Virus record (IMG/VR): IMGVR_UViG_3300044796_000352
Location: 1-23,012 of that record
Strand: one strand, 5' to 3'
Length of the DNA: 23,012 nucleotides
From: a virus
Shown here: piece after piece, positions 6,221 to 19,656 of the stretch
Position numbering within the stretch: position 1 is the stretch's first letter
How the letters are laid out: each line of letters opens with the position of its first letter
Made by a program: the position numbers and the translations under genes
Notes under the pieces: model-generated
What the model was told of the DNA's origin: nothing
Seen by the model: only the letters and a program-made list of their open reading frames with translations
Databases searched by the model: none

Positions 6221-6274
6221 GTAGGACAGGCCTCCCGGCCTGTCCCGAATGACAGGCCGGGAGGCCTGTCCTAC
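6221..6274. repeat. REP-like inverted pair (REPIN-type)
   Basis: Two 24-base units face each other across a 6-base spacer (6245-6250). Each is GTAG, then an 8-bp stem GACAGGCC/GGCCTGTC around a TCCC loop; the second (6251-6274) is the exact reverse complement of the first (6221-6244). GTAG head plus hairpin, doubled in inverted orientation, is the architecture of REPINs. The pair fills nearly the whole 66-base gap between two tail genes, and a single copy of the same unit lies at 10848-10871. Confidence 0.75.
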
Positions 6275-6275
6275 A

Positions 6276-6776
6276 TCAAACCGGGAATTCATCCACGATC
6301 AATTGAGCGAACAGGCCAACCGGTTTCGAGGCGCCGGCGACGGCGGAGATCTGCACTTCGAGGACGTCGCCGGCGACGAGTGCCGTCGAGGTGAAACCGG
6401 CCGCGGGCTTGAGCACGTAAGAGGCCGTGCCGTTGTCGAGCACGATGTCCGCGGACAAGATGTCCGCGCCGTTCTTGAGCAGCTTGCACGTCGCCGAGGA
6501 CGCCGAGCCGGCCGCGGTGACTGCGCCCAAACCGAAGGCGAGAATCGTTCCGCCGCCGCTGGCCTTGCAGACGTAGATGACACGCTGTTCCGTGGCGGCG
6601 TTGGCCGTCGACAGTTGCGCCCAGTGCGTCCAGTTGCGATGGCGGAGCTTGGTCGGGTCGACGTTGCTGCCGGCGGCAATGCCATCGTCGTCGATGCAGC
6701 CTTCGGGCGCGTTGAACGTGCTCGGCGACAAGTTGCCGTCAATGCGCACGTCGCCGGGGAAAACGGTCTGGGCCAT
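6276..6776 (-). CDS. Probable virion protein of unknown function
   Basis: 166 residues from ATG 6776, with GAGGTGAATC just upstream. It opens with MAQTVFPGDVRIDGNLS, a pattern I recall from hypothetical proteins in planctomycete prophages. Residues 30-50 contain HRNWTHWAQ; the C-terminal half is a run of strands (RVIYVCKASGGGTILAFGLG, CKLLKNGADILSA, VAGDVLEVQISA), consistent with a small jelly-roll or Ig-like fold. No signal peptide, membrane segment or catalytic motif. It lies 8 bases after the 387-residue gene and ends at the REP-like pair. Tail decoration or fibre-attachment are possible roles. Function not assigned. Confidence 0.65.
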   Translation of the reverse strand: MAQTVFPGDVRIDGNLSPSTFNAPEGCIDDDGIAAGSNVDPTKLRHRNWTHWAQLSTANAATEQRVIYVCKASGGGTILAFGLGAVTAAGSASSATCKLLKNGADILSADIVLDNGTASYVLKPAAGFTSTALVAGDVLEVQISAVAGASKPVGLFAQLIVDEFPV

Positions 6777-6784
6777 GATTCACC

Positions 6785-7948
6785 TCAAAACGGGATGCGC
6801 AATTTCGAAAACTTGGCTCGCTTGCGTTGGAAGGTCTGGTACGTGGGCACGCCGGTGACGATGCAGCCGTTGGGATGCGCGTTGCGGAAATTGGCGGTGA
6901 AGCTCGATGGCCCGAGCGCATCGATCTTCACGTCTTCCTGCGCATCTCCGGTGTCGATCCGAAGCATGTCGCCGACGTCCATGTTGGCGTCGGAGAAGAC
7001 GGAGACAAGGATTGCTTGCCCTGGACCGAACGCGGCCGAGGCGACGGATGTCTGAGGCAGCATGTGGCCTTTCGCGTCGAGCATCACGAGCCCGTTCAGC
7101 GCCATGCCGTTGGGGTCGACTGGCTTGATGCGATCGTGCGTGCCGTCGCGAGCGATGCAATAGTTGCCCTGGTTGAGAACCTGCCAATCCCAGCCGCCAA
7201 TCTGCAGCTCGATTTCCCACTTGTTGGCGAAGTAAACAATGCCGTTGTCTTCCTGCTGATCGCCGGTCCAAACATTGAGTTTGCAAAGGCCTGGGACATT
7301 GCCGAGCCAGGGATCGGAGTTCACCGCGCCGGTGTACTGCCAGGCCATTATCGGATCGTAGGCGATGGTGTTCTTCGTGATGGTCACAACCAGGTTGTGA
7401 AGATCGTCCATGACCGGAGGATCGAAGCGCTCGCCGGCCGAGTTGACGACGGCCCTTCCCTTGAGGTTGGCCGCGATCGCCGCCAGGGCGTTGCCGTTGC
7501 CCGGTGCCGGCACAAGGGAGTAATCGCTTTCGAGGGGCTGCTGGCGCTGGCGGGTCGCGAAGCTGATGATCGGCAGACGCGCCAGCGGATTGCCCACGGC
7601 CATTCCGCCGTTGTCCGCATTGCCTTGGTTCTTGCCTTCCTTGTCGCTAACGAGTTCCTGCTCGACATCCGATTCATACGTAATGTGAGCTTTCCACTCG
7701 AACGGGTTTTCCTCGGAGTCTTCAATGCCGATCTCGGAGACGTAGGCCCCTTCGTCGGATTCGTTCGCCGCTTCGTAGGTGTCGCCCCACTGAGGCAACC
7801 CGGATGCGAAAGCGGCTTCAAGCGAGGCCGTCAGCATGTTGTTGGTGTAAACGCGGTACGTGCGCTCATAGCGCCGGACAAGCTGGCGGTTGCGATAGGT
7901 CCAGGTGAGACGGCGTCCGCCGGTCTCGGCTTCGACGATCACGGCCAT
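6785..7948 (-). CDS. Distal tail or tail-hub candidate
   Basis: 387 residues from ATG 7948, which overlaps the tape-measure stop by one base (TAATG). Directly after the tape measure is where siphophages place the distal tail protein or hub. The N-terminal 90 residues contain YRNRQLVRRYERTYRVYT and later DSEENPFEWKAHITY, mixed strands and loops; residues 180-260 include VVTITKNTIAYDP and WEIELQIGGWDW, a large strand-rich core. Residues 308-368 carry the shared beta module (VGDMLRIDTG, then SSFTANFRNAH). I see no Dit or Tal signature, no peptidase motif and no collagen repeat, so hub is an inference from position and coupling. The gene is unusually acidic around residues 60-110. Confidence 0.6.
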   Translation of the reverse strand: MAVIVEAETGGRRLTWTYRNRQLVRRYERTYRVYTNNMLTASLEAAFASGLPQWGDTYEAANESDEGAYVSEIGIEDSEENPFEWKAHITYESDVEQELVSDKEGKNQGNADNGGMAVGNPLARLPIISFATRQRQQPLESDYSLVPAPGNGNALAAIAANLKGRAVVNSAGERFDPPVMDDLHNLVVTITKNTIAYDPIMAWQYTGAVNSDPWLGNVPGLCKLNVWTGDQQEDNGIVYFANKWEIELQIGGWDWQVLNQGNYCIARDGTHDRIKPVDPNGMALNGLVMLDAKGHMLPQTSVASAAFGPGQAILVSVFSDANMDVGDMLRIDTGDAQEDVKIDALGPSSFTANFRNAHPNGCIVTGVPTYQTFQRKRAKFSKLRIPF

Positions 7949-9633
7949 TACTGGGCGAGCCCTACGATCTTTTGCACGGGACGTTTCTTCAGTTCGCCAA
8001 GAACTCCCTTCATGTCCTTGGCCATCGCCTTCTCTTCGATCAGTTGCTTCTCACCTAGGGCGGCAAGCTGTTTGAGCGGATCGTTATCCTTCGTCTCCGC
8101 GCCGCGTTCGAGCGCGTTGATCGCGGAGAACGCGGCTTGCGAACCGCGCAGCAAGGCCTCGGGCGCTTTGCGTTCGGCGATCTTGTTCTGATCCAGAAGC
8201 TGCTTCGTCATCTTGCCGACGAGATTGTCAAACAATTCGGCCTCGATCCAGCCGCGGTTGAAGGCGACCTGAAGCTCTTCCACTTCCTCGGTCCACTTCT
8301 GGAACGGAGTCTTCAGGCCGTCGAGTTTGGCCATCGCTTTTTCGATGGCATCGAAGGCACGCTGGTCGATTCCACCGAGTATGCTTCCGACCAGGTTCAA
8401 TCCGCCGGTACCGGTGAACATCTCCTTGACGCGATCGCGGAACTCTTCGAGCTTCTTCATTACCGCGTCGACGTCGACGCCGTCGATGTTCTTCTTGATC
8501 TCTTTCATCGTGCCTTGAATGACCGACTCGATGGCATCTTCCCAGTTCTTCAATTCCTTGATCGATTCCTTGACCTTGGCGTTGCCGCCGGGCGTCAATG
8601 CGTCCGTCGCCTCGGCGATGTAGCGCCCGAGCGTTACGAAGGCCTTGGCAAGGGCCAGGGCCGCGAGCTTGACAAAGCCGAACACGGCTTCGATCTTGAG
8701 CCAGATGTTGTAAACCTCGACGGCCGCGCGGATGATGTATTTCGCACCGCCGAAGATGATGTCGGCGACGGCCTTGGCCGTCACGCCGCTCCCCTTGAGT
8801 TCTTCCTGCAACATGCGAATGAAGGGGATCGCTTCGAGGGCGATCTGCGTCCAGATGCCTTTGACGATGCCGTCGAATTCTTTCATGCCCTTCTTCGCCG
8901 CGGCCGCGGCCGTCGCGTCCGCTTCCGTGAGGATGAGGCCGAGGTCCCGTGCCTTTTGCGCCATGGCTTCAATGCCCTTCGATCCCTTGGCTAAGAGCGG
9001 CGCCATGTCGGCCCCAGCTTTGCCGAAGATGGTGAAGAGGAAGTGAGCCCGCTGGGCGGGATTGGCGATCTGTTTGAAGCGATCGGCGACTGTCTTCAGC
9101 GAATCGAGCAAGTTCATGTTGGCGAGCTTGTCGGAGTCCAAGCCCATCAACCGGAACTCTTTTGCCGCGCTCTTGCTGCCGCTGGCCGCATCGCCGAGCT
9201 TGTGGTTGAACTTCTCCAACGACTTGACAACGCTCTCGGCGTCGCCGCCAGCAATGAAGAGGATTTCTCCCATCGTGCCGACGTCTGTCCCGAGCTTTTG
9301 CGCCTGCTTGCGCATGTCGGAGATTTCTTCAATGACGCTCTTGAGCTTGCCCCAAAAACCCTCGGCAAAGCCAATCCCAGCGGAGAAGAAGCCGCCCACA
9401 TAGGGGATGGCCCCAATGAGGTTCTTCGCTGATTCGTAGAGCATGGCGAACGGATCGCCGCCGGAGGCGAGCTTGTTGAGCGCGCCGCCGACGCCTGAAA
9501 GAGATGAAGCCAGAATACCGTTGGTGAACTTGGCGAACTTGCCGACGGCGCTGATGCCCTGATCGAGGCCGGCTTTTAGACCGCCGACTCCGGCGGAGAT
9601 TTTGAGTACGAGATTACCGATGGTTGTGGCCAT
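7948..9633 (-). CDS. Tail tape measure protein
   Basis: 561 residues from ATG 9633. It is rich in helix, Ala and Lys, and has the pattern of tape measures: a Gly/Ala-rich N-terminal segment (residues 1-60), a hydrophobic stretch at about 70-92, and a conserved block at about 120-250 with ESVVKSLEKFNHKLGDA, then FRLMGLDSDKL, then AQRAHFLFTIFGKAGADM. A second long hydrophobic stretch lies at about 315-340. The C-terminal 200 residues are charged helices suited to coiled coil. Tape measures set tail length and reach from tail tip to head; at about 1.5 angstrom per residue this predicts a tail near 84 nm (inference). It overlaps the chaperone extension by 20 bases, as in lambda, and no lysozyme or peptidase domain is present. 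Confidence 0.88.
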   Translation of the reverse strand: MATTIGNLVLKISAGVGGLKAGLDQGISAVGKFAKFTNGILASSLSGVGGALNKLASGGDPFAMLYESAKNLIGAIPYVGGFFSAGIGFAEGFWGKLKSVIEEISDMRKQAQKLGTDVGTMGEILFIAGGDAESVVKSLEKFNHKLGDAASGSKSAAKEFRLMGLDSDKLANMNLLDSLKTVADRFKQIANPAQRAHFLFTIFGKAGADMAPLLAKGSKGIEAMAQKARDLGLILTEADATAAAAAKKGMKEFDGIVKGIWTQIALEAIPFIRMLQEELKGSGVTAKAVADIIFGGAKYIIRAAVEVYNIWLKIEAVFGFVKLAALALAKAFVTLGRYIAEATDALTPGGNAKVKESIKELKNWEDAIESVIQGTMKEIKKNIDGVDVDAVMKKLEEFRDRVKEMFTGTGGLNLVGSILGGIDQRAFDAIEKAMAKLDGLKTPFQKWTEEVEELQVAFNRGWIEAELFDNLVGKMTKQLLDQNKIAERKAPEALLRGSQAAFSAINALERGAETKDNDPLKQLAALGEKQLIEEKAMAKDMKGVLGELKKRPVQKIVGLAQ

Positions 9634-9993
9634 GACGAGCTAGCCGGACGGCGCGGAGACAGGCGACCCACTGGTCGATGTTGTCGGCGACGTTGGTTTC
9701 CGACTCCTCCTTATTCGCCGTGTCGCCCATCCAGTCGGGCATGAAGTCTTTGGGCAGGAAGGCTAGCTTGTGCTTCTCTTTGTCGCGCCAGACTTCCGCC
9801 GTTATCGAGCACAAGATGCCGAACAACAGATCGAGCCGCTCGCCGTCCCATGGATCGATCGAGTACAGTTGAGCCCACTCGTCGAAGACGTCGTTGGGCA
9901 TGCTCTCGCGAAAGGCGTCGGGATCGAGGATGGCCTCGCCGCCATGCGCCAGAGCGAGCTTCAGGAGCAACCGCCGCTTCGGGCGGTTCCTCA
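9614..9993 (-). CDS. Tail assembly chaperone, frameshift extension (GT-like)
   Basis: This frame has no good start of its own and is entered by a -1 shift at the AAAAAAC heptamer (9994-10000) at the end of the upstream chaperone. The extension adds about 126 residues beginning LRNRPKRRLLLKLALAHGG, giving a fused protein of about 249 residues. It contains EAILDPDAFRESMPND and FDEWAQLYSIDPWDGERLD, typical of short helical chaperone tails. In lambda the equivalent G and GT proteins coat the tape measure and recruit tube subunits, and both forms are needed in a fixed ratio. The gene overlaps the tape measure start by 20 bases. An independent start within this frame is possible but no ribosome site supports one. 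Confidence 0.8.
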
Positions 9994-10000
9994 GTTTTTT
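9969..10000 (-). promoter_or_regulatory. Programmed -1 ribosomal frameshift signal
   Basis: On the minus strand the chaperone ends GCA AAA AAC TGA. The heptamer A AAA AAC (9994-10000) is a canonical X XXY YYZ slippery site in the correct phase, directly before the stop. After a 5-base spacer (TGAGG) comes a perfect 7-bp stem AACCGCC/GGCGGTT with a 6-base loop CGAAGC (9969-9988), a suitable stimulatory hairpin. The -1 frame then continues for about 126 codons. Confidence 0.88.
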
Positions 10001-10362
10001 GCGTCGCCCTCGACCAGGTCTTTGATCTCGGCGTCGGAGTAGCCGCAAAGGCGCGTGGCGACGTCGAGACAGCGTTGCATCGGGGCTGCGGCCTTCTCGC
10101 CGAGGGCCTCGACGTCTTCCGGAGCGAAGAGGCATTTGCCCGCTTCATCGACCAGGCAGATCGCCAGCAACTTCGCCGAGAAGTTCTGCATGTTGAGCTG
10201 GCGGTTCTTGCCTTTGCCTTTGGCCAGTCCGTCTTCGAAGGCATCGCGTTGGTTGCGAGTTATCGCCCTTACGAGCACGTCGCCGCCCCATTCGGGGACG
10301 TTGACGGGTTCCGTCTTGATGTCTTCGGCGGCGAGGATCTGATCGCGGTTGAGCAGTGGCAT
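9991..10362 (-). CDS. Tail assembly chaperone (G-like)
   Basis: 123 residues from ATG 10362, with GGAG about 8 bases upstream. Sequence features are VPEWGGDVLVRAITRNQRDAFED at residues 22-44 and CLDVATRLCGYSDAEIKDL near the end, the layout of tail assembly chaperones that sit between tail tube and tape measure: a small beta domain, then helices. A large share of ribosomes should terminate at TGA 9991 to make this short form; the rest shift into the downstream frame. It follows the tail tube gene across a 40-base gap holding a REP-like hairpin. Role by family and position: keeps the tape measure soluble and directs tube polymerisation. Confidence 0.82.
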   Translation of the reverse strand: MPLLNRDQILAAEDIKTEPVNVPEWGGDVLVRAITRNQRDAFEDGLAKGKGKNRQLNMQNFSAKLLAICLVDEAGKCLFAPEDVEALGEKAAAPMQRCLDVATRLCGYSDAEIKDLVEGDAKN

Positions 10363-10373
10363 CGGGTTTCTCC

Positions 10374-10397
10374 ATAGGGCCGGCTTTCCAGCCGGCC
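10374..10397. repeat. REP-like hairpin, ATAG head
   Basis: On the plus strand it reads ATAG, then the stem GGCCGGCT/AGCCGGCC (8 bp, perfect) around a TTCC loop. Same layout as the other units here but with a different stem sequence. It lies in the 40-base gap between the tail tube stop and the chaperone start. Confidence 0.6.
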
Positions 10398-10402
10398 GCG
10401 GG

Positions 10403-10825
10403 TTAAACGATCGTGATGGCTTCCCAGGCTTCGCCGGTGAAGTCGATGACTTTGTCTTCGTCGACCTTGATCACGCGCGCCTGTTTCTTGCAGAGCACGT
10501 TGAAGGTCTCGGAATTGCTCCCGTTCGAATCCGTCACTCGGAACTTCACCGTGTTGTCGAGAAGCATGCCGACGAACGCGGTGAACAGCGCGGCCGTCCA
10601 GATACACTTGAATTTGAAGTCGCCGAGATCGAGTGTGGCGGAATTCTTCTGCGCATAGTTGGTGCCACGCAGCGGCCGGTACACGGCGTTCTTCTGGTCG
10701 ATGTCCGGCGGTTCCAGGTCGAGCACGTCTTTGATTTCGACCCAAGAATTCGAGACGGATGTCTGTTGATATTCGAGCTTGGTGCCAAGTCCGATTGTCG
10801 GCGTCACGCCGTTTGCGTCTGCCAT
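10403..10825 (-). CDS. Major tail (tube) protein
   Basis: 140 residues from ATG 10825 (MADANGVTPTIGLGTKLEYQ). Early GTKLEYQ and WVEIKDVLDLEPPDI, then LDLGDFKFKC and later VKFRVTDSNGSNSETFNV, match the strand layout of small siphophage tube proteins, which form stacked hexameric rings around the tape measure. Size is typical of the short single-domain type without the extra Ig domain. Position between the tail completion gene and the chaperones is decisive: this order is shared by HK97-like phages. The leader holds a REP-like hairpin and a second short hairpin (GTCTCC/GGAGAC at 10832-10850), which could affect expression of what should be one of the most abundant products. Confidence 0.82.
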   Translation of the reverse strand: MADANGVTPTIGLGTKLEYQQTSVSNSWVEIKDVLDLEPPDIDQKNAVYRPLRGTNYAQKNSATLDLGDFKFKCIWTAALFTAFVGMLLDNTVKFRVTDSNGSNSETFNVLCKKQARVIKVDEDKVIDFTGEAWEAITIV

Positions 10826-10847
10826 GTTGGGCGTCTCCTACTTCGGA

Positions 10848-10871
10848 GACAGGCCGGGAGGCCTGTCCTAC
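10848..10871. repeat. REP-like hairpin, single copy supplying a stop codon
   Basis: Identical to the unit at 6251-6274: stem GACAGGCC/GGCCTGTC, loop GGGA, tail CTAC; its reverse complement begins GTAG. The TAG of that head, at 10868-10870, is the stop codon of the tail completion gene. A further palindrome (GTCTCC/GGAGAC, 10832-10850) abuts it. Confidence 0.75.
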
Positions 10872-11293
10872 GGGGCAATGATCCAGGTCACATCCATCCG
10901 CACGTCGCGGAGGCCGGAGCTTTCGCCGGGCCGCGGCGGTTCGTCGTCGTCCGTCGCGCCTTCGTCTTCGTCGCCGGTGCCGATGAAGGAACCGATCACG
11001 GTCAAGCCGCCGAAGGTTCCCAATGTCCCATCCAGGAGCGTCTTCAATGCGCTCTGCAACTGCTCGGCTTGCAAGCGCGTCGCGAGGTACGCTTTCAACT
11101 GGAAGCGGCTGCGGATGCTTCCGACCGGTCCGCGGAGGCCTTTGCGCTGGTAACGCGAGACCTCCTGAAATTCCAGGTAGGGCTCGACAACCGTTTCGCC
11201 GGCCTGGTCGGGATAGATCGCCGGGCCGAGGATCGCCGTGATCGTGTCTTGCGACGCGAGGAAGGCTCCGAAGGCTTGCTTGGGTGTCGGCAT
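10868..11293 (-). CDS. Tail completion / head-tail joining protein, DUF3168-like
   Basis: About 141 residues from ATG 11293, whose ATG overlaps the preceding TGA (TGATG); a GTG one codon upstream is an alternative. The pattern PTPKQAFGAFLASQDTI, then AIYPDQAGETVVEPYLEFQ, then RFQLKAYLATRLQAEQLQSALKTLLDG, matches DUF3168 proteins: a small alpha/beta fold in which the line about input pressure of Y/Q residues precedes a long helix. These cap the tail tube where it meets the head. An acidic loop (GTGDEDEGATDDDEPP, about residues 106-121) is an unusual insertion before the last strand. It ends in a stop codon provided by a REP-like hairpin. Between the gp10-like protein and the tail tube, as expected. 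Confidence 0.78.
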   Translation of the reverse strand: MPTPKQAFGAFLASQDTITAILGPAIYPDQAGETVVEPYLEFQEVSRYQRKGLRGPVGSIRSRFQLKAYLATRLQAEQLQSALKTLLDGTLGTFGGLTVIGSFIGTGDEDEGATDDDEPPRPGESSGLRDVRMDVTWIIAP

Positions 11294-11799
11294 CACTTGC
11301 TCAATTCAGCGGCTAGGCCCGCTTCGCATTCGGCGGCGAATATCTCTTCAGTCGATGACTTCGTTTCTTCGTAGCCGGGCCGCATGTGCGGGTTGGGCTT
11401 CGCGCCCGGATGCTGGATCACGCGGCCGTCTCGATCGATCTCCGCATGCGGGGCCGTGCCGAACTCGACCAGGTGAGCGATCTTGGCCGGATCCTCGTAG
11501 ACTTCTTTCCTGCCCCAGCCGTCGCCTTGCACCATGCCGCCGAAACCGTTGCGTGCCCCGATGACGGCGACGATCGTCATCGTCTTCGGATAGCTCTTGA
11601 TCTTGCGGCCGAGGGCTTTGCGAAGCAGCCCGGAGCGTTGTTTCACGTGGCCTCGGATGGCGGCGACCGTTCCCTTCGTGGCCCGGCTCATGGCTTTCTT
11701 CATCACCTTGCGTTGCATCTTGTCGGGGATGGAGGCGAGGACTTGCGTCGCCGCTTCCGCCCCTTCCAGTTTGCCGCCGAGGTCGACCATGTCAGGCAC
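11293..11799 (-). CDS. HK97 gp10-like head-tail / tail completion protein
   Basis: 168 residues from GTG 11799, overlapping the adaptor stop by 8 bases; an ATG three codons later (11790) would avoid most of the overlap. Typical gp10 features: LGGKLEGAEAATQVLASIPDK, a basic helix (KMQRKVMKKAMSRATKG), LRKALGRKIK, and the signature IAHLVEFGTAPH followed by HPGAKPNPHMRPGYEE, close to the family motif with a Pro-X-X-hydrophobic-Arg-Pro ending. The family is an alpha/beta protein at the head-tail junction. It is about 30 residues longer than the shortest members. Flanked by adaptor and completion genes in the standard order. Confidence 0.85.
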   Translation of the reverse strand: MPDMVDLGGKLEGAEAATQVLASIPDKMQRKVMKKAMSRATKGTVAAIRGHVKQRSGLLRKALGRKIKSYPKTMTIVAVIGARNGFGGMVQGDGWGRKEVYEDPAKIAHLVEFGTAPHAEIDRDGRVIQHPGAKPNPHMRPGYEETKSSTEEIFAAECEAGLAAELSK

Positions 11800-12160
11800 T
11801 CCGCTCTTGCACCATCATCACGAGCGATTCGCGTTTCTCGTCCGGACTGCGCGGCGTGCCGTCGATGCTGAAGATCCGCAAGGCGTTCGTGCCCGGATCG
11901 AGGTATTCCAAGCGATACAAGGCACTCATTCCCGGTCGGTAACGCATGGTCACCTTGTGGGAAATCTGCCGGCGCATCTGAGCCGCGGCGTAAAGTTCCG
12001 AGGCGCTGAGCGGCTCGATCGAACACCAGACGCCCGTGGCCACTGCGACCGACCAGTCTTCGATCGGCTGGCGATTGGCGTCGATCGCCGGCGTCGCCAT
12101 GTTCTGGTATGGCTGGCGGATCGTGACCTGATGGCGTAAGGTGCCGGCGGCCAATCCCAT
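11792..12160 (-). CDS. Phage head-tail adaptor (stopper) protein
   Basis: 122 residues from ATG 12160. GTLRHQVTIRQPY near the N-terminus, then WCSIEPLSASELYAAAQ, then HKVTMRYRPGMSALYRLEY and RIFSIDGTPRSPDEKRESLVMMVQE, follow the head-tail adaptor family (SPP1 gp16 / HK97 gp7 type) closely: a beta barrel with a conserved R-H-x-x-x-I-x-x strand and a final E-R strand ending. It seals the portal channel after packaging and receives the tail. Usual family length is about 105-120. In related phages this gene directly follows the gp6-like connector; here three unknown genes separate them. Confidence 0.87.
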   Translation of the reverse strand: MGLAAGTLRHQVTIRQPYQNMATPAIDANRQPIEDWSVAVATGVWCSIEPLSASELYAAAQMRRQISHKVTMRYRPGMSALYRLEYLDPGTNALRIFSIDGTPRSPDEKRESLVMMVQERSA

Positions 12161-12197
12161 GTTTGCTTCTCCGCGATCGGCCAGTCACGCGGCCGTG

Positions 12198-12515
12198 TCA
12201 CGCCGCTGCCGGCACGCTCGCCGTTTCCAGCGTGGGAGCCGTCGGCGGTTCCGGCTCGGCCGGGCTCGCCGGTTTCGGCGTTGGAGGATCCACCAACGTC
12301 AACGTGAGTTGGTAGACCTGGCCCGGTTTGACTTCCTGGCCCTCGGCGAGCGTGGCCGCGCCGAGTTCGACGTGGCCGCGGGCCGTGTGGACGATGATTC
12401 GCGCGTGCGGATCGCCGTCCGGAACTTCCGCTTCGAGGGTGACGATGATCTGCTCTTTGTCGGCCCAATGCGTGTCTTTGACGCTGGAAACCGTGAGCGC
12501 GTGGTTGAGGATCAA
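12198..12515 (-). CDS. Small protein with Pro/Ala-rich tail, unknown function
   Basis: 105 residues starting from TTG 12515, which overlaps the previous TGA (TTGA). GGAGGG lies 6 bases upstream, strongly supporting the rare start. Residues 20-75 form a small beta domain (QIIVTLEAEVPDG, ARIIVHTARGHVELG, VYQLTLTLVDPP). Residues 76-105 are a low-complexity Pro/Ala/Glu tail (TPKPASPAEPEPP), probably disordered. Such tails are seen on exposed or head-lining proteins. No family recognised. The gene sits between connector and adaptor genes, where a structural accessory is plausible. It ends 37 bases before the adaptor start. Confidence 0.6.
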   Translation of the reverse strand: MILNHALTVSSVKDTHWADKEQIIVTLEAEVPDGDPHARIIVHTARGHVELGAATLAEGQEVKPGQVYQLTLTLVDPPTPKPASPAEPEPPTAPTLETASVPAAA

Positions 12516-13072
12516 GCAGTCCCTCCAATGACCGTGATCAACACTTTGGCGGCAACGCCGCTGTCGTTGTTCACGATCTTGAGATTCAAGTGGCTGGAAT
12601 CGACGGTGATGCCCGAAGCCGATCCGTCCTGGTAGTGAAGAACGGAGCCGTTGTTGATCGTGATGGTCGGCGTGGTGCCGGCCATGTTGAGGACGTTCGG
12701 ATTGCTGGCGCCGCCGCCAACAGTGATCGACGAGCAGGCGTTGCCGGCCGTGCCGTCGGGCGCGGCGTCGTTGGCGCCAAGCAGGTGAATTCGGAAGCCC
12801 TTGATGCGGGCGAGGCTGATCGTGGCCTGCCCGGCGATGTCGGTGAAGCTCTGCAAGTTGATCGTGACGTTGCCCGACGCGCTAATCGACAGCAACGAAT
12901 GATAGACTTCATCCGCTCCGCCGATGGCGGCGTCGGCCGCGGCCAGGCTGAGTTGCTGCGTCTTCGAGGCGATGGTCTGACCGCCCAGGCCGTTGGCGAG
13001 CCCGGCGACGGCCAGGGAGCCGTTGACGTTGGCGATCGATTGCAGGCTCGATTGTTGCGTTGTCAGGGGCAT
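12512..13072 (-). CDS. Beta-rich virion protein of unknown function
   Basis: 186 residues from ATG 13072 (MPLTTQQSSLQSIANVNG). GAGGAATTGCCC directly precedes this ATG. The frame is open for 25 more codons, but those are translated from a REP-like palindrome, so the shorter start is preferred. Residues 1-55 are helical and Ala/Gln-rich; the rest is beta with repeated Ile/Val strands (ITVGGGASNPNVLNMAGTTP, then LNLKIVNNDSGVAAKVLI). The end pattern resembles hypothetical proteins I recall from planctomycete prophages. It lies between connector and adaptor genes, coupled by TTGA to the gene downstream. Decoration or neck protein is possible. Confidence 0.65.
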   Translation of the reverse strand: MPLTTQQSSLQSIANVNGSLAVAGLANGLGGQTIASKTQQLSLAAADAAIGGADEVYHSLLSISASGNVTINLQSFTDIAGQATISLARIKGFRIHLLGANDAAPDGTAGNACSSITVGGGASNPNVLNMAGTTPTITINNGSVLHYQDGSASGITVDSSHLNLKIVNNDSGVAAKVLITVIGGTA

Positions 13073-13088
13073 GGGCAATTCCTCAAGA

Positions 13089-13135
13089 GGCAAGCGAGAC
13101 GCTTGCCCTACGTGGAGCAAGCGTCTCGCTTGCTC
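13089..13135. repeat. REP-like pair, tail to tail
   Basis: First unit 13089-13111: GGCAAGC/GCTTGCC stem around GAGAC, ending CTAC. Second unit 13112-13135: GTGG, then AGCAAGC/GCTTGCT around GTCTC. The heads meet directly (CTAC-GTGG), the reverse arrangement to the pair at 6221. The second unit runs into the stop codon of the gene ending at 13134. Confidence 0.68.
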
Positions 13136-13499
13136 ATGACTTCGCAATTCCGTTGACGGTGATGGTTCCGTGGGTGCCGCCGACGTCGTCGATCACTTTG
13201 ACGCGGTAGTAGCGGTACGGGGCCGGGTTGGCCGTGTAGCTGGCGTTGCTGCCGGCCGTGATCTTCGTGGCGGCGAGGACGGCGACTTCGTCGGAGTAGT
13301 CGGCGGCGTTGGCGCCGAAGACGCTCCAGTCGACGTCGTGCGTCGCGGCGATCGCGGTGTAAGCGACCGTCTTGTACTGGGTGACGTCGAGTTCTGCGCC
13401 GGTGACGACAACCGTGGCGTTGGTCGATGTCTGTGGGCCGACGGCGCCGGTGACCAGGGCGGCGGGGAGGGTGTCGGTTTGGACTTTCGTTGCACTCAC
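13134..13499 (-). CDS. Small beta protein of unknown function
   Basis: 121 residues from GTG 13499, which overlaps the connector TGA (GTGA), the simplest coupled start; an upstream in-frame GTG at 13541 lacks a ribosome site and would lie inside the connector gene. Strands alternate with small residues (ATVVVTGAELDVTQYKTVAYTAI, DVDWSVFGANAADYS), and residues 88-98 carry APYRYYRVKVIDDVGG, a typical sheet edge. This looks like a single Ig- or discoidin-like beta sandwich, often found in phage decoration or neck proteins. No family is recognised. The stop overlaps a REP-like unit. Confidence 0.62.
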   Translation of the reverse strand: MSATKVQTDTLPAALVTGAVGPQTSTNATVVVTGAELDVTQYKTVAYTAIAATHDVDWSVFGANAADYSDEVAVLAATKITAGSNASYTANPAPYRYYRVKVIDDVGGTHGTITVNGIAKS

Positions 13500-14305
13500 G
13501 GATAGATCCCACTGTGCGCGCTGCTCAGCAGCGATTCCCACCGATCAAATTCCGCCTTGGACGGTTCGCGGTTCAGGTATTTCCAGCCGATCGACAGCAG
13601 CATCGCGGAGAGGATTCGCGAGGGAACCGATCGGACGGTCACGCCCGCCAGGTGGCTTTGCGCGAACGTGGCCGTGAACGTCGTCCCCGTCACGCCCGAG
13701 ACAACCACTTGTTCGGCGGTCGCTCCGCTGTCGACGCCAAGGATGCTCCCGGCGACGATGCCGGCCATGCTTCCTGGTGTCACGGTCTGACTTCCGGACG
13801 CGATCGCCAGGGCAACCGTCGTGCATGGCCAGCCGGCGACGTATTGGATCAGCACCGAGTCGGCCTGATAACGGCTGACCGGCCACACCTGGCCATATGC
13901 TGGTTCGATCGTTCCGGGCTCGCGATCGGCCGAGGCCAGATAGAGCGTCGGATCGAGCGTTTGCAAGTTGCCGAACGTATCGACGTAGGTGATTCCCGAA
14001 ACACTCACCAGCGGCGGCCGCGGCAACCGGATGCGCCGGGCTTCGAGCCATTCGTAAGCCCCGACGCCGAGCGTCGAATAGCGCGGCTGGCTCGATCCGT
14101 CGTAAAACGGAAAGCGATCGAGGGAAATCTTCCAGGTCTGCGCCGGGATCGTCCGCTGCGTGAAGACTTCGGCTTCCTCGCGCGCGGCGGTGATCCACAT
14201 CGACAGCAACGCATCTTCCGCCGTCGAATCGATCCGGCAATGCAAGCGAGCTTCCGTAAGCGTCACCGGCTCGGCCGCCGGCGGAGTCACGAGGGTGATG
14301 TGCAC
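13496..14305 (-). CDS. gp6-like head-tail connector with an inserted beta module
   Basis: 269 residues from GTG 14305, preceded by GGGAGGGCGATC. Residues 1-65 show the connector signature: LVTPPAAEPVTLTEARLHCRID, then AREEAEVFTQRTIPAQTW. Residues 95-160 continue the normal fold up to QYVAGWP, and the usual final helix (ILSAMLLSIGWKYLNREPS) resumes at residue 231. Between them, residues about 163-229 are an extra beta module (SQTVTPGSMAGIVAG, then TTFTATFAQSH) where the family normally has a short loop. Connector proteins form a dodecameric ring under the portal. Ordinary members are about 180-200 residues, so the insertion accounts for most of the excess. The same module occurs in two tail proteins in this window. 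Confidence 0.85.
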   Translation of the reverse strand: MHITLVTPPAAEPVTLTEARLHCRIDSTAEDALLSMWITAAREEAEVFTQRTIPAQTWKISLDRFPFYDGSSQPRYSTLGVGAYEWLEARRIRLPRPPLVSVSGITYVDTFGNLQTLDPTLYLASADREPGTIEPAYGQVWPVSRYQADSVLIQYVAGWPCTTVALAIASGSQTVTPGSMAGIVAGSILGVDSGATAEQVVVSGVTGTTFTATFAQSHLAGVTVRSVPSRILSAMLLSIGWKYLNREPSKAEFDRWESLLSSAHSGIYP

Positions 14306-14319
14306 GATCGCCCTCCCTT

Positions 14320-14343
14320 CCGGTTGCGGAGCAACCGGTCTAC
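14320..14343. repeat. REP-like hairpin, GTAG head
   Basis: Reverse complement: GTAG-A, then the stem CCGGTTGC/GCAACCGG (8 bp, perfect) around TCC. It nearly fills the gap between the duplicated-domain gene and the connector, and its first base overlaps that gene's TAG stop (14343-14345). Confidence 0.68.
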
Positions 14344-15071
14344 TACGCCGTCAGGATCGAGTGCCATTGACCGGCAACGGTGCAATACAGTGTCGCGACT
14401 TTCGTCGTGGCCATCGACAGGGCCGCATTGGCGCCCAGGGCGTTGATCTGTTCCGTTGTCGTGCCGCCGGCGTTGGGGAACACTTGCAGCGAATGCGCGC
14501 CGGCGTTGATGATCGTCAGTTCCATGCCCGGCGCGCTCACGGGGAGCGTGCAGGCGTCGCCATTGTTGGCGACCGTGGTGAAACGACTGATGGCGGCGGT
14601 GATCGCCAGGCCACCCGCTTGCGTTTGCGTGGTGCCCGCGGTCAGGGCGTCGGCGGCGGAATAAGTCGGTAAGCTGCCGTTGTAGCCGACGCCGGGCGAA
14701 TCGCTGTACCACTTCCCCGCGACAGGGCAGGTGTAGTAGCAGCACGAATTTTGCATCTGCGACACGCCGGTCGCGGTGGCGACGTCGTTGATCGTGTCGG
14801 CATAGCCGTTGTCGCCGAAGACCTGCATCGGGTTGGCGCCCGAGTTGATCACGCAAACGGTGAGCCCCGGAATGGCCGGCGGCAAGGCGACGGAGTCGGC
14901 CGCGGCGGCGACGGTGCTGACGCGATTGATCAGGTTGACGAGCTTCAGGGCCGACGTCTGACCGCCTCCGGAATGCGCCGTGAGCGCGTCCAGGTTGGAC
15001 AGGTTCAATTGTCCGTCCTGGCCGATGAAGCATCGACCAGGAAAGTGTCCGAGTTCCGCGGCTGCCGACAT
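14343..15071 (-). CDS. Virion protein with an internal domain duplication
   Basis: 242 residues from ATG 15071; GGAGGGTTGATTC upstream is a strong ribosome site. Two similar domains are visible. The first, about residues 44-130, runs LINRVSTVAAAADSVALPP, LTVCVINSGANPMQVFGDN, ending YYTCPVAGKWYS. The second, about residues 155-240, runs AISRFTTVANNGDACTLP, LTIINAGAHSLQVFPNAG, ending LYCTVAGQWHSI. They share the order of strands, the IN(S/A)GA and QVF motifs and the final AG(K/Q)W(Y/H)S. A short linker (GGGQTSAL region at the start, Ser/Thr/Ala-rich in the middle) separates them. It lies between a small head protein and the connector, a position used for head decoration, fibre or neck-whisker proteins. 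Function not assigned. Confidence 0.65.
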   Translation of the reverse strand: MSAAAELGHFPGRCFIGQDGQLNLSNLDALTAHSGGGQTSALKLVNLINRVSTVAAAADSVALPPAIPGLTVCVINSGANPMQVFGDNGYADTINDVATATGVSQMQNSCCYYTCPVAGKWYSDSPGVGYNGSLPTYSAADALTAGTTQTQAGGLAITAAISRFTTVANNGDACTLPVSAPGMELTIINAGAHSLQVFPNAGGTTTEQINALGANAALSMATTKVATLYCTVAGQWHSILTA

Positions 15072-15090
15072 GAATCAACCCTCCACGAAT

Positions 15091-15113
15091 CACAAGTTGG
15101 AAACTTGTGCCAC
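15091..15113. repeat. REP-like hairpin, GTGG head
   Basis: The stem CACAAGTT/AACTTGTG (8 bp, perfect) surrounds GGA and is followed by CCAC; the reverse complement begins GTGG and has a TCC loop. It lies in the 49-base gap between two head genes. Confidence 0.65.
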
Positions 15114-15120
15114 TTGAGAA

Positions 15121-15543
15121 TTACGCGTTGGGGCCGGCGAAGTCGGAGGCGGCGATGGTCTGGGTCACGGGCATGTTCTTCGAGTTGAACTGGATGGCGA
15201 GGATCGCGGAGATCGCGGCGTTCTGCGCCGTGCGCGTCACGTAGGCGAAGACGTAGCGCTGGGTCGGGCGCTGGACTTCGACCGATTGGACCGTGTCCGA
15301 AGACGTCGCCGCGGTGATGGCCGTGCCGGTCTTTTCCACGGTGCCGCCGCTCGACGAACTGGTCGGGTTGCTCTTCACGGCCAGGGTGACGACGGAATTG
15401 TCGGTGACCGTGCCGAGAATGGCGACGAAGATCACCGAGTCGTAACCCTGCATGTCGAGCACGCTCGACGATTGCGCCGTGGTGCCGGCGGCGACTTCGT
15501 TCATCACGCGGGTGATGAGCATGTCTTTGGTAATCGAAAGCAT
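15121..15543 (-). CDS. Small head-associated protein, decoration candidate
   Basis: 140 residues from ATG 15543 (MLSITKDMLITRVMNEVAAGT). The pattern TRVMNEVAAGTTAQSSSV, then MQGYDSVIFVAILG, then QRPTQRYVFAYVTRTAQNA is beta-rich and resembles small hypothetical proteins I recall next to capsid genes in planctomycete prophages. It has no signal peptide and no enzyme motif. It follows the major capsid gene after a 59-base spacer, the place where many phages carry a decoration or head-stabilising protein. The role is inferred from position only. Confidence 0.65.
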   Translation of the reverse strand: MLSITKDMLITRVMNEVAAGTTAQSSSVLDMQGYDSVIFVAILGTVTDNSVVTLAVKSNPTSSSSGGTVEKTGTAITAATSSDTVQSVEVQRPTQRYVFAYVTRTAQNAAISAILAIQFNSKNMPVTQTIAASDFAGPNA

Positions 15544-15602
15544 GGGCGGGGCCTCAGCACGTTGGACTCGGAAAGCGAAACTCGAAACTCAAAACGCTGG
15601 CG
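15544..15602 (-). other. Short spacer with heptamer repeat
   Basis: This 59-base gap between capsid and decoration-candidate genes holds two tandem GAAACTC copies (15577-15590, plus strand) with a related GAAAGCG just before and AAAACGC just after. It shows no hairpin or promoter I would defend. Confidence 0.4.
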
Positions 15603-17075
15603 TTACGCCACTTGCAGGAGCTTGACCGGGGTGTTGCCGGCGGTCAGGAGATTGCCGTCTTCGCGCGTGAAGGCGATGAAGCCGTCTTGATCGGTGTCGC
15701 GGTAGCGCTCTTCCAGACGATACATCCGCGTCGCGCCGACCGTGCGAATCTTGTACTTGGAGAGGTCGCCGTAGGCCAGCACGTTCTTGCCCGTGGCAAC
15801 CGTGTTGTCCATGTCCTGATTGGTGACGATCGGGTCGCCGTCGAGGGTGTCGGGCGCGCCGTCGCGGATGTTCGACTGCCACAGGGGCCGGCCGATGCCA
15901 TCCTTGAACAGGCGCATGTACATCAAGATCTGGTCGTGGCACATGAACGCCGGATTGACGCGGTAGGACGGCTCGACCGAGGCCTTGAGCTTGACGATGT
16001 CGTCGAAGACGAACGATCCCGCCTTGCCGCTGAGGATGTAACCTTTGGCGTAGCCGGTCGGGTACGAGAGCGTGTCGTTGCCGAGCGCCACGAGCTTGCT
16101 GATCAAGCCCATCGGCGTGGCCGCTCCGGAGCCGAGCGTGAACTTCGTGTTGCCGACGCGGCCGAGGCGGATGCCGAACATCTCGCCGATCATCTTGGCG
16201 ACGTCGAACGCCGCGTCTTGCAGAAGCTCGGTCGGGATCAGGCAGGGCTTCGACGAGAACTTATAGGCGTCCCAGTAGACCTTGGCGAAGCTGGGATCGA
16301 CCGAACTGCCGATCGAGGCCGATTCGCCAAGCTGGACGCCGGTGTTGCCAGTATCATCCGCGGTGGGCCACGACATGCGTTCGCCGGTCGCGGTGCGAAT
16401 GGTCTCGGCGGCCTGGCGCATGCCGCCGAACATCAGCATGTTGACTTCGAGGGAGCGGATCAGCGTCTCGGGCGGAACGAGGTAGCCGCCAGCGGTGCCG
16501 CTGCCGATCGACAACGTGGCCTTGTAGCCGTTCATCTTGTTGGCGGCGTGCGACGGATGGACCGAGCGACACGCGCTGACCAACTTCGAATAATCTTCGG
16601 TGCCGAAGAGCGGCATCGTCAATTCTTTGGCCATCGGATTGAAGCGGATCAACTTGCAGGCCGCTTGCATGTCTTCGTCGAGGTAGGCGCCGAGTTGGGC
16701 GGAGAACCACGCGGCCATCGCCGTGGCGCGGACTTCCTCGTCGGAATCGAAGCCGGCCTCTTTGAGAAGCTCGGCGTGGGCTTCTTGCTGATGCTTGCGC
16801 TTGGAGACTCGCGTGCTGCCGCCGGTGTCGCCGCGGCGATCTTCGCGGCCGATGTCGGCACGCCAGTCGGCGATGACGCCCTGGTCTTTGGCGACCTGGG
16901 CGGCGCGCTCGGCGACTTCGATCTGCGCGGTGAGGGCGTTGTACTCGTTGTTGGCCTGGACCCAGGCCGGGGTGAACTGGCCCGCAGTATCAACGGCGGT
17001 CCCATCGGCGGACATCTTGGTGATGGCGGCGCCGATGGGGGCGCGTTTCTCGCGGAGTTCTTTGACGGTGGGCAT
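15603..17075 (-). CDS. Major capsid protein, HK97 fold
   Basis: 490 residues from ATG 17075, with GGAAG 6-10 bases upstream. Residues 1-110 are charged and helical (MPTVKELREKRAPIGAAI, then a coiled stretch at about 41-65 and REDRRGD at 77-83), the delta-domain type that serves as built-in scaffold and is removed by the head protease. The folded part has family marks: GTAGGYLVPPE at about 193-203, MSWPTADDTG near 234-243, GSGAATPMG at 315-323, DGDPIVTNQDM near 412-422, and GDLSKYKIR at 436-444. The capsid forms the icosahedral shell. A Cys at 278 and two earlier ones make it richer in cysteine than many relatives. It has its own 117-base non-coding leader with a hairpin. Confidence 0.93.
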   Translation of the reverse strand: MPTVKELREKRAPIGAAITKMSADGTAVDTAGQFTPAWVQANNEYNALTAQIEVAERAAQVAKDQGVIADWRADIGREDRRGDTGGSTRVSKRKHQQEAHAELLKEAGFDSDEEVRATAMAAWFSAQLGAYLDEDMQAACKLIRFNPMAKELTMPLFGTEDYSKLVSACRSVHPSHAANKMNGYKATLSIGSGTAGGYLVPPETLIRSLEVNMLMFGGMRQAAETIRTATGERMSWPTADDTGNTGVQLGESASIGSSVDPSFAKVYWDAYKFSSKPCLIPTELLQDAAFDVAKMIGEMFGIRLGRVGNTKFTLGSGAATPMGLISKLVALGNDTLSYPTGYAKGYILSGKAGSFVFDDIVKLKASVEPSYRVNPAFMCHDQILMYMRLFKDGIGRPLWQSNIRDGAPDTLDGDPIVTNQDMDNTVATGKNVLAYGDLSKYKIRTVGATRMYRLEERYRDTDQDGFIAFTREDGNLLTAGNTPVKLLQVA

Positions 17076-17130
17076 GGGCGACTTCCACTAGGACTGTGAG
17101 TGCCGTGAGGTGATCTCAGGACACTATAAA

Positions 17131-17160
17131 CCCCCGCCCCAACGGTTGGGAGCGGGCGGG
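17131..17160 (-). terminator. GC-rich hairpin in the capsid leader, possible attenuator
   Basis: On the minus strand CCCGC and CCCAA pair with TTGGG and GCGGG around CCG, with an unpaired CCGCT bulge. It is followed by GGTTTATAG, which has only three consecutive T, so it is a poor intrinsic terminator. It could partly stop readthrough from the protease, protect a processed capsid mRNA end, or be incidental. Confidence 0.3.
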
Positions 17161-17161
17161 T

Positions 17162-17182
17162 GCCAAAATGCTATGCTTGGCA
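17162..17182. repeat. Dispersed 21-bp interrupted palindrome, copy 2
   Basis: Identical to the copies at 1626 and 22441; here the flanking T extends the arms to TGCCAA/TTGGCA. It lies between the 35-residue micro-gene and the capsid gene, next to the GC-rich hairpin. An 11-base piece (ATGCTTGGCAT, inverted) recurs at 17275-17285 but lies within coding sequence. Confidence 0.8.
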
Positions 17183-17192
17183 TTTCAGGGCA

Positions 17193-17300
17193 TCATTCCC
17201 CGTGGACCCAATCTCCGGCCTTCTCGAATCCAAACAACCAAAACACACCGGCGATCGGATGGACAACGATGTTATGCCAAGCATTGCGTAGGCGTCGCAT
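17193..17300 (-). CDS. 35-residue phage micro-protein
   Basis: ATG 17300 to TGA 17193 encodes MRRLRNAWHNIVVHPIAG, then VFWLFGF, then EKAGDWVHGE. The pattern HNxVxHPxxG, a hydrophobic core, GDWVH is one I know from very small conserved proteins of tailed phages (HNLVAHP and WLHD type motifs). GAGGGG from the end of the protease gene lies about 10 bases upstream, and the start is 6 bases past the protease stop. It may associate with membrane or capsid; no function is established. It is easily missed because it is shorter than most gene-finding limits. Confidence 0.6.
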   Translation of the reverse strand: MRRLRNAWHNIVVHPIAGVFWLFGFEKAGDWVHGE

Positions 17301-17306
17301 TTCAAT

Positions 17307-18203
17307 TTACCCCTCAATGGCGATCGCCCGGGCGCGGGCAATCGCTTGGTTGCGGCGAGCTTCGGCGCTGGGCGTGTCCGTTGCGCCGAGTTGCTTCATG
17401 ATCTTGTCCATCGTGCCGATGCGATCGATCATGCCCGCGGCCAGGGCGTCCTCGGCGTTCAGGGTGCGACCTTGGCCGAATGTCTTGTCGACCTTCGATT
17501 CGGAAATGCCGCGGCCCTTGGCGATGTCGGCGACGAACTGCGCGTGAACCGCGTTGCAATTCTTTTGCAGGTTGGCCTTGGCCTCATCGGTGAGCGGCTG
17601 CCAGAGTTCGGCCTTGTATGGGGCGCTGGCGATTAACGTCGTCGTGATGCCGTCCATCTCATCGGCCTTGCTGTAGTCGGTGTGGCCGTAGAGCACGCCG
17701 ACGCAGCCCGCTTGACCGCTGGGCGTGCAAACGATTTCCGATGATTGCGAGATCAACCAGTAAGCCGCGGACGCCGCGCAGGGATCAATGAAGCCGACGA
17801 TCTTCTTCTGATCGCGAGCGGCGCGAATCTTGGCGGCCAACTCTTGGACGCCGGGCACACTGCCGCCGGGGGAATCGTAGACCATCACGATCGACTTGAC
17901 CGCTTTGTCACTCACGAGCGAATCGAGGCTGGCGCCGAGTTCTTCCGTGGATACGCCGCCGCTGGCGCGTTCGAGCATGCCGACGCGCTGGGAGATGGTG
18001 CCGAACACGGGGAGCACGGCGACGCGGCCGACCATCTGCACGCCGTCCGGTCGACGCGAGGCGGCGAGCGCCTGCACCTGTTCATCGAGCAGTTCGCCGC
18101 CATCGGCCTTCATGCGCAAGAAGGCGCGGATCTCCGCGAGCTTCTCGGGCAAGATCGCCCAGGGCGTGGAGAAGAAGGCGGAGAGAATTTGCTGGTACTT
18201 CAT
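17307..18203 (-). CDS. Prohead protease, S49 (SppA-like) family
   Basis: 298 residues from ATG 18203, with TAGGAG 7 bases upstream. Core strand VAVLPVFGTISQR at 61-73; YDSPGGSV at 109-116, the conserved glycine turn; catalytic Ser145 in CAASAAYWL; and Lys197 in SAPYKAELWQPLTDE, the Ser-Lys dyad of S49 peptidases. Phage members cleave scaffold and capsid N-termini during head maturation. There is no long C-terminal scaffold as in lambda C/Nu3; the extended capsid N-terminus probably takes that role. The first 30 residues are amphipathic rather than a true signal peptide, which fits a cytoplasmic prohead enzyme. Located between portal and capsid, as expected. Residue identities are visible; activity is inferred from family. 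Confidence 0.9.
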   Translation of the reverse strand: MKYQQILSAFFSTPWAILPEKLAEIRAFLRMKADGGELLDEQVQALAASRRPDGVQMVGRVAVLPVFGTISQRVGMLERASGGVSTEELGASLDSLVSDKAVKSIVMVYDSPGGSVPGVQELAAKIRAARDQKKIVGFIDPCAASAAYWLISQSSEIVCTPSGQAGCVGVLYGHTDYSKADEMDGITTTLIASAPYKAELWQPLTDEAKANLQKNCNAVHAQFVADIAKGRGISESKVDKTFGQGRTLNAEDALAAGMIDRIGTMDKIMKQLGATDTPSAEARRNQAIARARAIAIEG

Positions 18204-18213
18204 GTGGCGACTC

Positions 18214-19497
18214 CTAAGTATTGTTCTTCGGGTTGCCCGGTTGCGGACCGCCCTTGTCGTCGGGTTGATTGTCCTGGCCGCCCTTGCCCATGTTGAGCGG
18301 GTTGAGATATTCCGCGGCCTCGCCGCCGAGCGGATTCATATTCATCTTCTCGCGGGCTTCGTCGGGGAGCATCCAGGGCCGGCCGCCCAGGGCGGTGCGG
18401 AAGTAATTGGACTGCGCGGCTAAGTCGGCCTTCACCAGCGATTCGCGGTGGAACTCGATGACGTGCGAGTCTTCCGTCTTCTGTTCTTCCGTCAACAGTT
18501 TCTCGCGATGTTCGGCTTCAACCATGCAAAACCAACCGTCGAGGCAATCGTCCAGGAAGTTTTGATCTTCCTGTTCGAGGGACGCGAAACTGCGACCATC
18601 CTTGTCGCCGAGCTTGTGCGGCGGCAGCCCGAGAATATTGGCCATGTCGACGATGGAGAACTGCCGGCTCTCGATCAGTTGCGCTTTCTCGGCGTCGATC
18701 GATAGTTGCTGGATCTCCGCGCCGCCGTCGAGGATGCCGGCGCGGTGGGCATTGTCGAGGCCCGAGTGCATCCGGTCGAAGCCCTTGAGCAACTCGCTCT
18801 TCGCTTTGTCGACCAGCGAGTTTTTCGTCTTGATCACGACGCCCGGCCTCGCGCCCCGGCCGAAGAATCCCGCGGAGTACTTCTGCTTGGCGAGGCCTTC
18901 GCCGAGCGCCTCGCGCGCGAAGGTCAGGACGTCGTAACCGACCAGGCCGTCCCAGCCGAGGCCGCGCCAGTGGAGGACGTCCTCGGAAGGTAACTTGCGT
19001 TCCTGGCCGCCGACTTTGGTGATGTACCAGACTTGGCCGTCGACGCGAACCGGCTGCGTCACGTCGGGATCGAGGAGCAATAATTCGCGGGGAGTGCCGT
19101 CGCCGTTGCGAAAGATGTAGCGATAGCCGTTTCCCTTCAGCAGGACGTGGGCCATCTTGACGCGCTTCTGATCGAAGGCCGTGGTTTCAATGCGCGTTGG
19201 GATCGGCTGATAGCGCAGCAGCCCGTAGGCGAAATGCTTGGTGTCGACGACTTTGCCGGCGCCGCCATCAACGCGACGGTAGACGATCTCGGGGATCTTC
19301 GCGAAGTTGGTGCAGATCAAATTCACACCGCGCCAGAACGCAGGCAGCGTCAGCGCGCTCTTGCGGTTGATCGGCAAGCCCGCCGCGGATGGAGTGCCGG
19401 CGTCGAAGGCTTCCCAGGCGCCGGGATCATTCAAGGAGAAGCGTGGATTCTCCGGCGTGGCGGCCCGCGGCGTCAGCAGTCGGTTGAGCCAGGACAT
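18214..19497 (-). CDS. Portal protein, HK97 family
   Basis: 427 residues from ATG 19497, which overlaps the stop of the small membrane gene (TAATG), so an in-frame start at 19575 is rejected. Signature segments are SALTLPAFWRGVNLICTNFAKIP at about 48-70, DVLHWRGLGWDGLVGYDVL at 173-191, GGAEIQQLSID at 258-268 and VDMANILGLPPHKLGD at 283-298. The C-terminal 30 residues are Gly/Asn/Pro-rich and probably disordered. The portal is a twelve-subunit ring at one capsid vertex through which DNA enters and leaves; it binds terminase and later the connector. Length is usual for the family. It is followed by the prohead protease after 10 bases. Confidence 0.93.
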   Translation of the reverse strand: MSWLNRLLTPRAATPENPRFSLNDPGAWEAFDAGTPSAAGLPINRKSALTLPAFWRGVNLICTNFAKIPEIVYRRVDGGAGKVVDTKHFAYGLLRYQPIPTRIETTAFDQKRVKMAHVLLKGNGYRYIFRNGDGTPRELLLLDPDVTQPVRVDGQVWYITKVGGQERKLPSEDVLHWRGLGWDGLVGYDVLTFAREALGEGLAKQKYSAGFFGRGARPGVVIKTKNSLVDKAKSELLKGFDRMHSGLDNAHRAGILDGGAEIQQLSIDAEKAQLIESRQFSIVDMANILGLPPHKLGDKDGRSFASLEQEDQNFLDDCLDGWFCMVEAEHREKLLTEEQKTEDSHVIEFHRESLVKADLAAQSNYFRTALGGRPWMLPDEAREKMNMNPLGGEAAEYLNPLNMGKGGQDNQPDDKGGPQPGNPKNNT

Positions 19498-19652
19498 TAG
19501 CGAGCCCCCCACAAGCCGAGCGACATGAAGACGATGCCGGCCACGACGAGGCAAAGCGGTGGCCAGATCCACCAAAGGCCGATGCCCATGATGGAGAGAC
19601 CGGCGAGGAACAGGCCTTCCGGCAGACGGCCGGGCGACAAGGGCGATTTCAT
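19497..19652 (-). CDS. 51-residue membrane protein between terminase and portal
   Basis: ATG 19652 to TAA 19497. After a polar start (MKSPLSPGRLPEG) come two hydrophobic stretches, about residues 13-32 and 33-49 (PLCLVVAGIVFMSLGLWG). The terminase stop lies 4 bases upstream and the portal ATG overlaps its stop, so it is locked into the operon by coupling. Its function is unknown; a role in membrane-associated packaging, portal insertion or superinfection is possible. Not recognised as a named family. Confidence 0.75.
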   Translation of the reverse strand: MKSPLSPGRLPEGLFLAGLSIMGIGLWWIWPPLCLVVAGIVFMSLGLWGAR

Positions 19653-19656
19653 TGGA

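Follow-up and report, generated by a model that had tools for sequence, protein, structure and literature searches.

REP elements are tiny mobile repeats whose copies are distributed over bacterial chromosomes by RAYT transposases, and they are thought to spread inside a chromosome. Planctomycetes carry REPs of the GTAG type; for Rhodopirellula baltica, several families per genome were described, with many REPs flanking tyrosine transposase genes (PMC3733652). For cleavage, group 3 TnpA-REP depends on the GTAG head, on certain bases of the loop, and on a perfectly paired stem (PMC8266576). REPs usually avoid mobile elements: those of Pseudomonas lie in REP deserts, and REPs mark older regions of the genome (PMC3390384). 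A first-pass annotation of the DNA considered here knew of no description of such repeats in planctomycetes; that view is superseded by the 2013 report of GTAG REPs in this group (PMC3733652).

The window, that is, the whole stretch analysed, is a virus record of 23,012 bases. All of its identified genes lie on the minus strand and together form a siphophage late block. The block proper (7948..21501) comprises the terminase large subunit (19657-21501), portal (18214-19575), protease (17307-18203), major head protein (15603-17075), head-tail connectors, tail chaperone (9991-10362), and tape measure (7948-9633), and a tail-fibre-like protein is encoded at 2211-4325. No RAYT gene was recognised within the window. 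Between the late genes lie eight short hairpins, all confirmed at the positions first reported for them. Judged from their sequences, and with a probability of about 0.88, these are GTAG-type REP elements that derive from a Gemmataceae-like planctomycete with several RAYT/REP lineages and landed in the late block of a phage.

The eight units fall into five stem classes and include two inverted pairs, each of a single class. Class A has the form GTAG-GACAGGCC-TCCC-GGCCTGTC. Its units at 6221..6244 (plus strand) and 6251..6274 (minus strand) are the left and right halves of an inverted, heads-outward, REPIN-like pair, and a single unit lies at 10848..10871 (minus strand). The second pair is heads-inward and consists of a class B unit (GTAG-GGCAAGCG-TCT-CGCTTGCC; 13089..13111, minus strand) and a variant that differs from it by one compensated pair (GTGG-AGCAAGCG-TCT-CGCTTGCT; 13112..13134, plus strand). 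Classes C (GTGG-CACAAGTT-TCC-AACTTGTG; 15091..15113, minus strand), D (GTAG-A-CCGGTTGC-TCC-GCAACCGG; 14320..14343, minus strand), and E (ATAG-GGCCGGCT-TTCC-AGCCGGCC; 10374..10397, plus strand) are each represented once. The class D unit has one spacer base between head and stem, and class E was assigned from architecture alone. Heads thus lie on the plus strand in three units and on the minus strand in the other five, and the four unpaired units are of mixed orientation. Beside the class A unit, within 10826-10871, there is a further inverted repeat, GTCTCC-GAAGTA-GGAGAC, the middle of which contains another GTAGG; this is perhaps a decayed second unit.

What these units share is their architecture. 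Stems are perfect in all eight, at 8 bp or slightly more, and a GT[AG]G head stands at the foot of the hairpin, directly or 1-2 nt 5' of it, in seven; the unit at 10374 has ATAG instead. Loops are 3-4 nt long (TCCC, TTCC, TCC, or TCT). The first three loops had been read correctly in the first-pass annotation, whereas its fourth, GTCTC, counted a G-C pair as loop, the real loop being TCT. The five classes described there also stand, but not the view that they are unrelated, as the bridging stems CACAGGTT, CACAAGCG, and AGCAAGCG occur in the planctomycete genomes G338 and G003. The five stem classes are several RAYT/REP lineages that share head, loop, and pairing, rather than five accidents.

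As originally claimed, the units occur only in gaps between late genes. All eight are intergenic, distributed over six gaps, and no overlap with a stop codon exceeds 4 nt. Relative to the upstream gene's stop codon, each unit or pair starts anywhere from 4 nt inside to 7 nt past it, and 11-22 nt separate its end from the next start codon. The REPs thus take up the short stretch that leads from a stop codon to the next ribosome site. Without their units, the gaps would be 12, 16, 22, 16, 14, and 26 nt long. Of the gap that separates the gene at 6276-6776 from that at 4704-6209, the class A pair leaves only 12 nt free, and the gene at 10868-11296 takes its TAG stop codon from the GTAG head of the 10848 unit. 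Units are absent from the larger gaps at 15544-15602, 17076-17306, and 19576-19656, so not all gaps are used.

Relatives of the units are dispersed through bacterial chromosomes. The exact class A 24-mer, GTAGGACAGGCCTCCCGGCCTGTC, matched more than 120 genome stretches, a lower bound among the matches listed, that belong to Acidobacteriota (Bryobacterales/Solibacter) and Planctomycetota (Gemmataceae), and is present in 4 of 95 Gemmataceae genomes. One of the Gemmataceae genomes, G001, carries 16 class A copies with GTAG and GTGG heads (reversed control, 0). The two units of the class A pair are separated by 6 nt in the window. Inverted class A pairs are spaced 7-13 nt apart in Gemmataceae, with which the window agrees, and anywhere from 2-101 nt in Acidobacteria. 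Among 398 Planctomycetia genomes, class B occurs 20 times in G338, three times in G254, twice in G288, and once each in G353 and G001. The copies in G254 and G001 include GTAG-GGCAAGCG-TCT (three and one, respectively), while GTAG-AGCAAGCG-TCT is found in G338. Class D reaches about 111 copies at up to two mismatches in the Gemmataceae genome G040, with 22 exact copies among the matches listed. Class C is absent from the 398 genomes at up to one mismatch; its relative GTGG-CACAGGCT-TCC, two base pairs from the 15091 unit, occurs with close variants 73 times in G003. The sole match to class E among the 95 Gemmataceae genomes has one mismatch, and this class is unplaced. No single genome carrying all five classes was found. 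These comparisons point to a Gemmataceae-like planctomycete as the host.

REP-like units are abundant in such genomes. Counts of units with a GTRG head, compared with control heads, were 27 against 1-6 in G001 (400 kb), 77 of about ten classes against 5-16 in G003 (364 kb), 28 against 1-7 in G254 (258 kb), and 19 against 0-3 in G338 (81 kb), a genome selected for class B. The proposed search of host-type genomes for an intergenic bias gave a divided result. When genes were called by a simple method, 22 of the 27 G001 units and 60 of the 77 G003 units fell outside genes, although about 88% of the sequence is coding. In G254, however, only 12 of 28 are outside and 16 are inside predicted genes, so the bias is not universal. 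At 0.35 units per kb (8 in 23 kb), the window is unexceptional against a REP-rich host such as G003 (0.21 per kb; P=0.12), and exceptional only against the REP-poor G001 (P=0.0002).

The proposal that these are REPs of the RAYT system is well supported by the genes that the units accompany. In a Bryobacterales genome (L187/L077), the class A 24-mer flanks on both sides an open RAYT gene of 188 aa (1192-1758), with units at 1157 (plus), 1723 (plus), and 1778 (minus), the last with one loop base changed. The encoded protein scores 79.3 bits against the NCBIfam model for REP-associated tyrosine transposases (cut-off 80). Three homologues from Gemmataceae score above this threshold (83.7, 88, and 94.8), and a fourth, of the spacer type, scores 58.8. 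The Gemmataceae RAYTs are flanked by GTGG-GGCAGGCC-TCCC (G001:C58), GTGG-CACAGGCT-TCC, the class C relative (G003:C120), GTGG-CACAGACA-TTCC (G003:C112), and GTAG-T-CATCACGC-TCC (G003:C581), and that of a further planctomycete by GTAG-C-CCTGTCGC-TCC (G254:C119). In a tree of 21 RAYTs, C112 joins C120 (100/98) and C581 joins C119 (100/99); the former clade accompanies units without a spacer base, and the latter units with one. Both groups of units are present in the window, at 15091 without a spacer base and at 14320 with spacer A.

Class A itself flanks a RAYT gene, in Bryobacterales; for class C, it is a close relative that does so, in G003. No partner RAYT was found for class B or class E. 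A spacer-type RAYT was predicted for the class D-rich G040; no close relative of one turned up in that genome, which is in many small contigs, and the protein that was found there is only 29% identical and differently built. The RAYTs beside the class A unit in Acidobacteriota and beside its variant in Planctomycetota are only about 34-43% identical, and the identical 24-base REP is multi-copy in both phyla (L077:1157-1801; Gemmataceae loci such as L065:5138-5161). A Bryobacterales metagenome-assembled genome (G004, the genome of L039) has about 15 matches to RAYT-like proteins, several with their own flanking REP class (L262, L270, L284). Some Gemmataceae RAYT reading frames (L265:1450-2262, L278:1156-1860) run upstream through REPs, giving repeated peptides such as GREACPT and CGTGFQPV; these REP-derived peptides may be mis-annotated as protein.

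The comparison with related prophages yielded no GTRG unit in 167 kb of eleven Gemmataceae prophage stretches with a related terminase (25-41% identical). Some hosts of these prophages are REP-poor, for example G099 with one unit in 80 kb, and the absence is therefore weaker evidence than it appears. Thirty terminase relatives from IMG/VR contain four GTRG units in 334 kb, which is not above control heads. Classes B-E have no match in viral contigs, and the class A pair has none in the INPHARED phage collection. A REP-bearing late block is thus unusual; it could be the outcome of long residence or else of insertions made while the phage was replicating.

Class A is also found in five virus contigs, and in some of these T7-like portal and head genes adjoin the unit. 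Eighty relatives of this portal (L360-L439, from IMG/VR) contain 32 GTRG units, compared with 0-20 for control heads, so some of the 32 are due to chance. Most of the real-looking ones are double hairpins of host type in late-gene gaps (for example, L397:2910-2931 and 4506-4527), situated ahead of the portal or of the next head gene, or else behind a gene of 303 aa. With repeated sites counted once, about 22 are oriented against transcription and three with it, whereas in gaps between same-direction genes of acidobacterial loci 35 are oriented with transcription and 13 against. The contrast is large, but its nominal P of 1e-6 is overstated, because class A served to select the acidobacterial loci, the two sets differ in their classes, and the phages are interrelated. 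These T7-like phages are unrelated to the window phage and, to judge by their REP classes, their hosts are probably Acidobacteria.

Several other explanations can be weighed against this evidence. Inverted repeats might arise by chance in G+C-rich spacer DNA, and 7-10 bp stems without a head do occur elsewhere in the window. Dinucleotide-preserving shuffles of the window, scored for stems of at least 8 bp with an [AG]T[AG]G head, gave a mean of 0.08 units and a maximum of one, compared with eight observed, which upholds the claim of an excess over shuffled sequence and rejects pure chance. The GTRG head itself accounts for seven units, a count that takes in the spacer-type unit and leaves out the ATAG unit, compared with 0-2 for other head tetramers. 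Together with identical units in bacterial genomes, the shuffle result makes the probability of coincidence practically nil. The first-pass annotation had also offered mRNA structures, owned by the phage and selected to tune late-gene expression as processing sites, stabilisers, or attenuators, rather than mobile elements. Such a role would suit the presence of a unit within 7 nt of the stop codon in each occupied gap, the strength of the late-mRNA hairpins (to a predicted -58 kcal/mol for the RNA fold of the 6221-6274 pair), and the nearly uniform orientation of the comparable hairpins of the T7-like phages. Exact or near copies scattered through bacterial chromosomes, the lack of units in 167 kb of related prophages, and the mixed orientations of the window's unpaired units all speak against it. 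Moreover, the asymmetric loop tracks the head and not the transcript in both orientations, which argues for a DNA-level rather than an RNA-level element. An intrinsic terminator was rejected because the stems have no T run behind them on the transcript strand, and a known structured RNA because there were no matches at the Rfam gathering score. Regulatory structures of the phage's own making are consequently very improbable.

A more serious possibility, if still the weaker side of the odds, is that the late block is an old and perhaps domesticated phage remnant, such as a defective prophage or a gene-transfer-agent-like element, in which the REPs would be no more than a sign of long residence. 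Such a reading keeps to the preferred explanation, as a variant that adds a date for the insertions. It draws on the association of REPs with older genome regions and on the REP deserts of Pseudomonas mobile elements (PMC3390384), as well as on a unit density within reach of a REP-rich host. The identified late genes are, however, open and recognisable, with none seen broken, and T7-like phages carry REPs too, so long residence is not required.

If the hairpins are REPs of host origin, a RAYT (TnpA-REP, an HUH tyrosine transposase) would recognise the single-stranded hairpin by its GTRG head, its loop, and its perfect pairing and, by analogy with the known biochemistry of other RAYTs, would place copies at other sites. 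Copies may have entered the late block while the phage resided or replicated in its host, and purifying selection would have retained only those that lie behind a stop codon and ahead of the next ribosome-binding site. The resulting hairpins in phage mRNA would probably be a tolerated, near-neutral side effect. Since head, loop, and perfect stem remain constant while the stem letters vary in a compensated manner, the architecture follows from known TnpA-REP recognition, and no new mechanism is required. A broader scenario, which for now seems unlikely, is that RAYTs regularly insert host REPs into replicating phages, that the survivors are those in late-gene gaps, and that phages ferry REP classes between species and even phyla. 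This would explain the patchy distribution of REPs, including the identical class A in Acidobacteriota and Planctomycetota.

One phage with several REP classes, and a second phage group in which host-type REPs recur, make phages a testable vehicle for REP spread. Late-gene gaps offer tight landing sites in which the insertion preferences of RAYTs could be read. For annotation, such hairpins are to be labelled as REPs and not as phage regulators.

Compared with known systems, the units most resemble the GTAG REPs of Di Nocera 2013 (PMC3733652), including those of Rhodopirellula baltica, in their GTRG head, 6-9 bp stem, and short loop, and in having several families per genome, inverted dimers, a mostly intergenic location, and a link to RAYTs, planctomycetes included. 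They differ from these in lying in a phage late-gene block; the comparison with the published families is one of features. REPtrons and the TnpA-REP subclasses (PMC6006769; PMC8266576) similarly combine a RAYT with flanking direct and inverted REPs and recognition of head, loop, and perfect stem; the window, unlike a REPtron (PMC6006769), has no recognised RAYT, and the cognate RAYTs shown are limited to that of class A, which comes from another phylum, and that of the class C relative. The 6221-6274 pair is heads-outward and folds into one long hairpin, as in REPINs (PMC3116915), but its spacer is only 6 nt, and the 13089-13134 pair is heads-inward. A search of the open literature, with most subscription journals outside its reach, found no report of REPs in phage late genes. 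The kind of element is already known; its setting in phage late-gene gaps, where such repeats are normally missing, is the unusual part.
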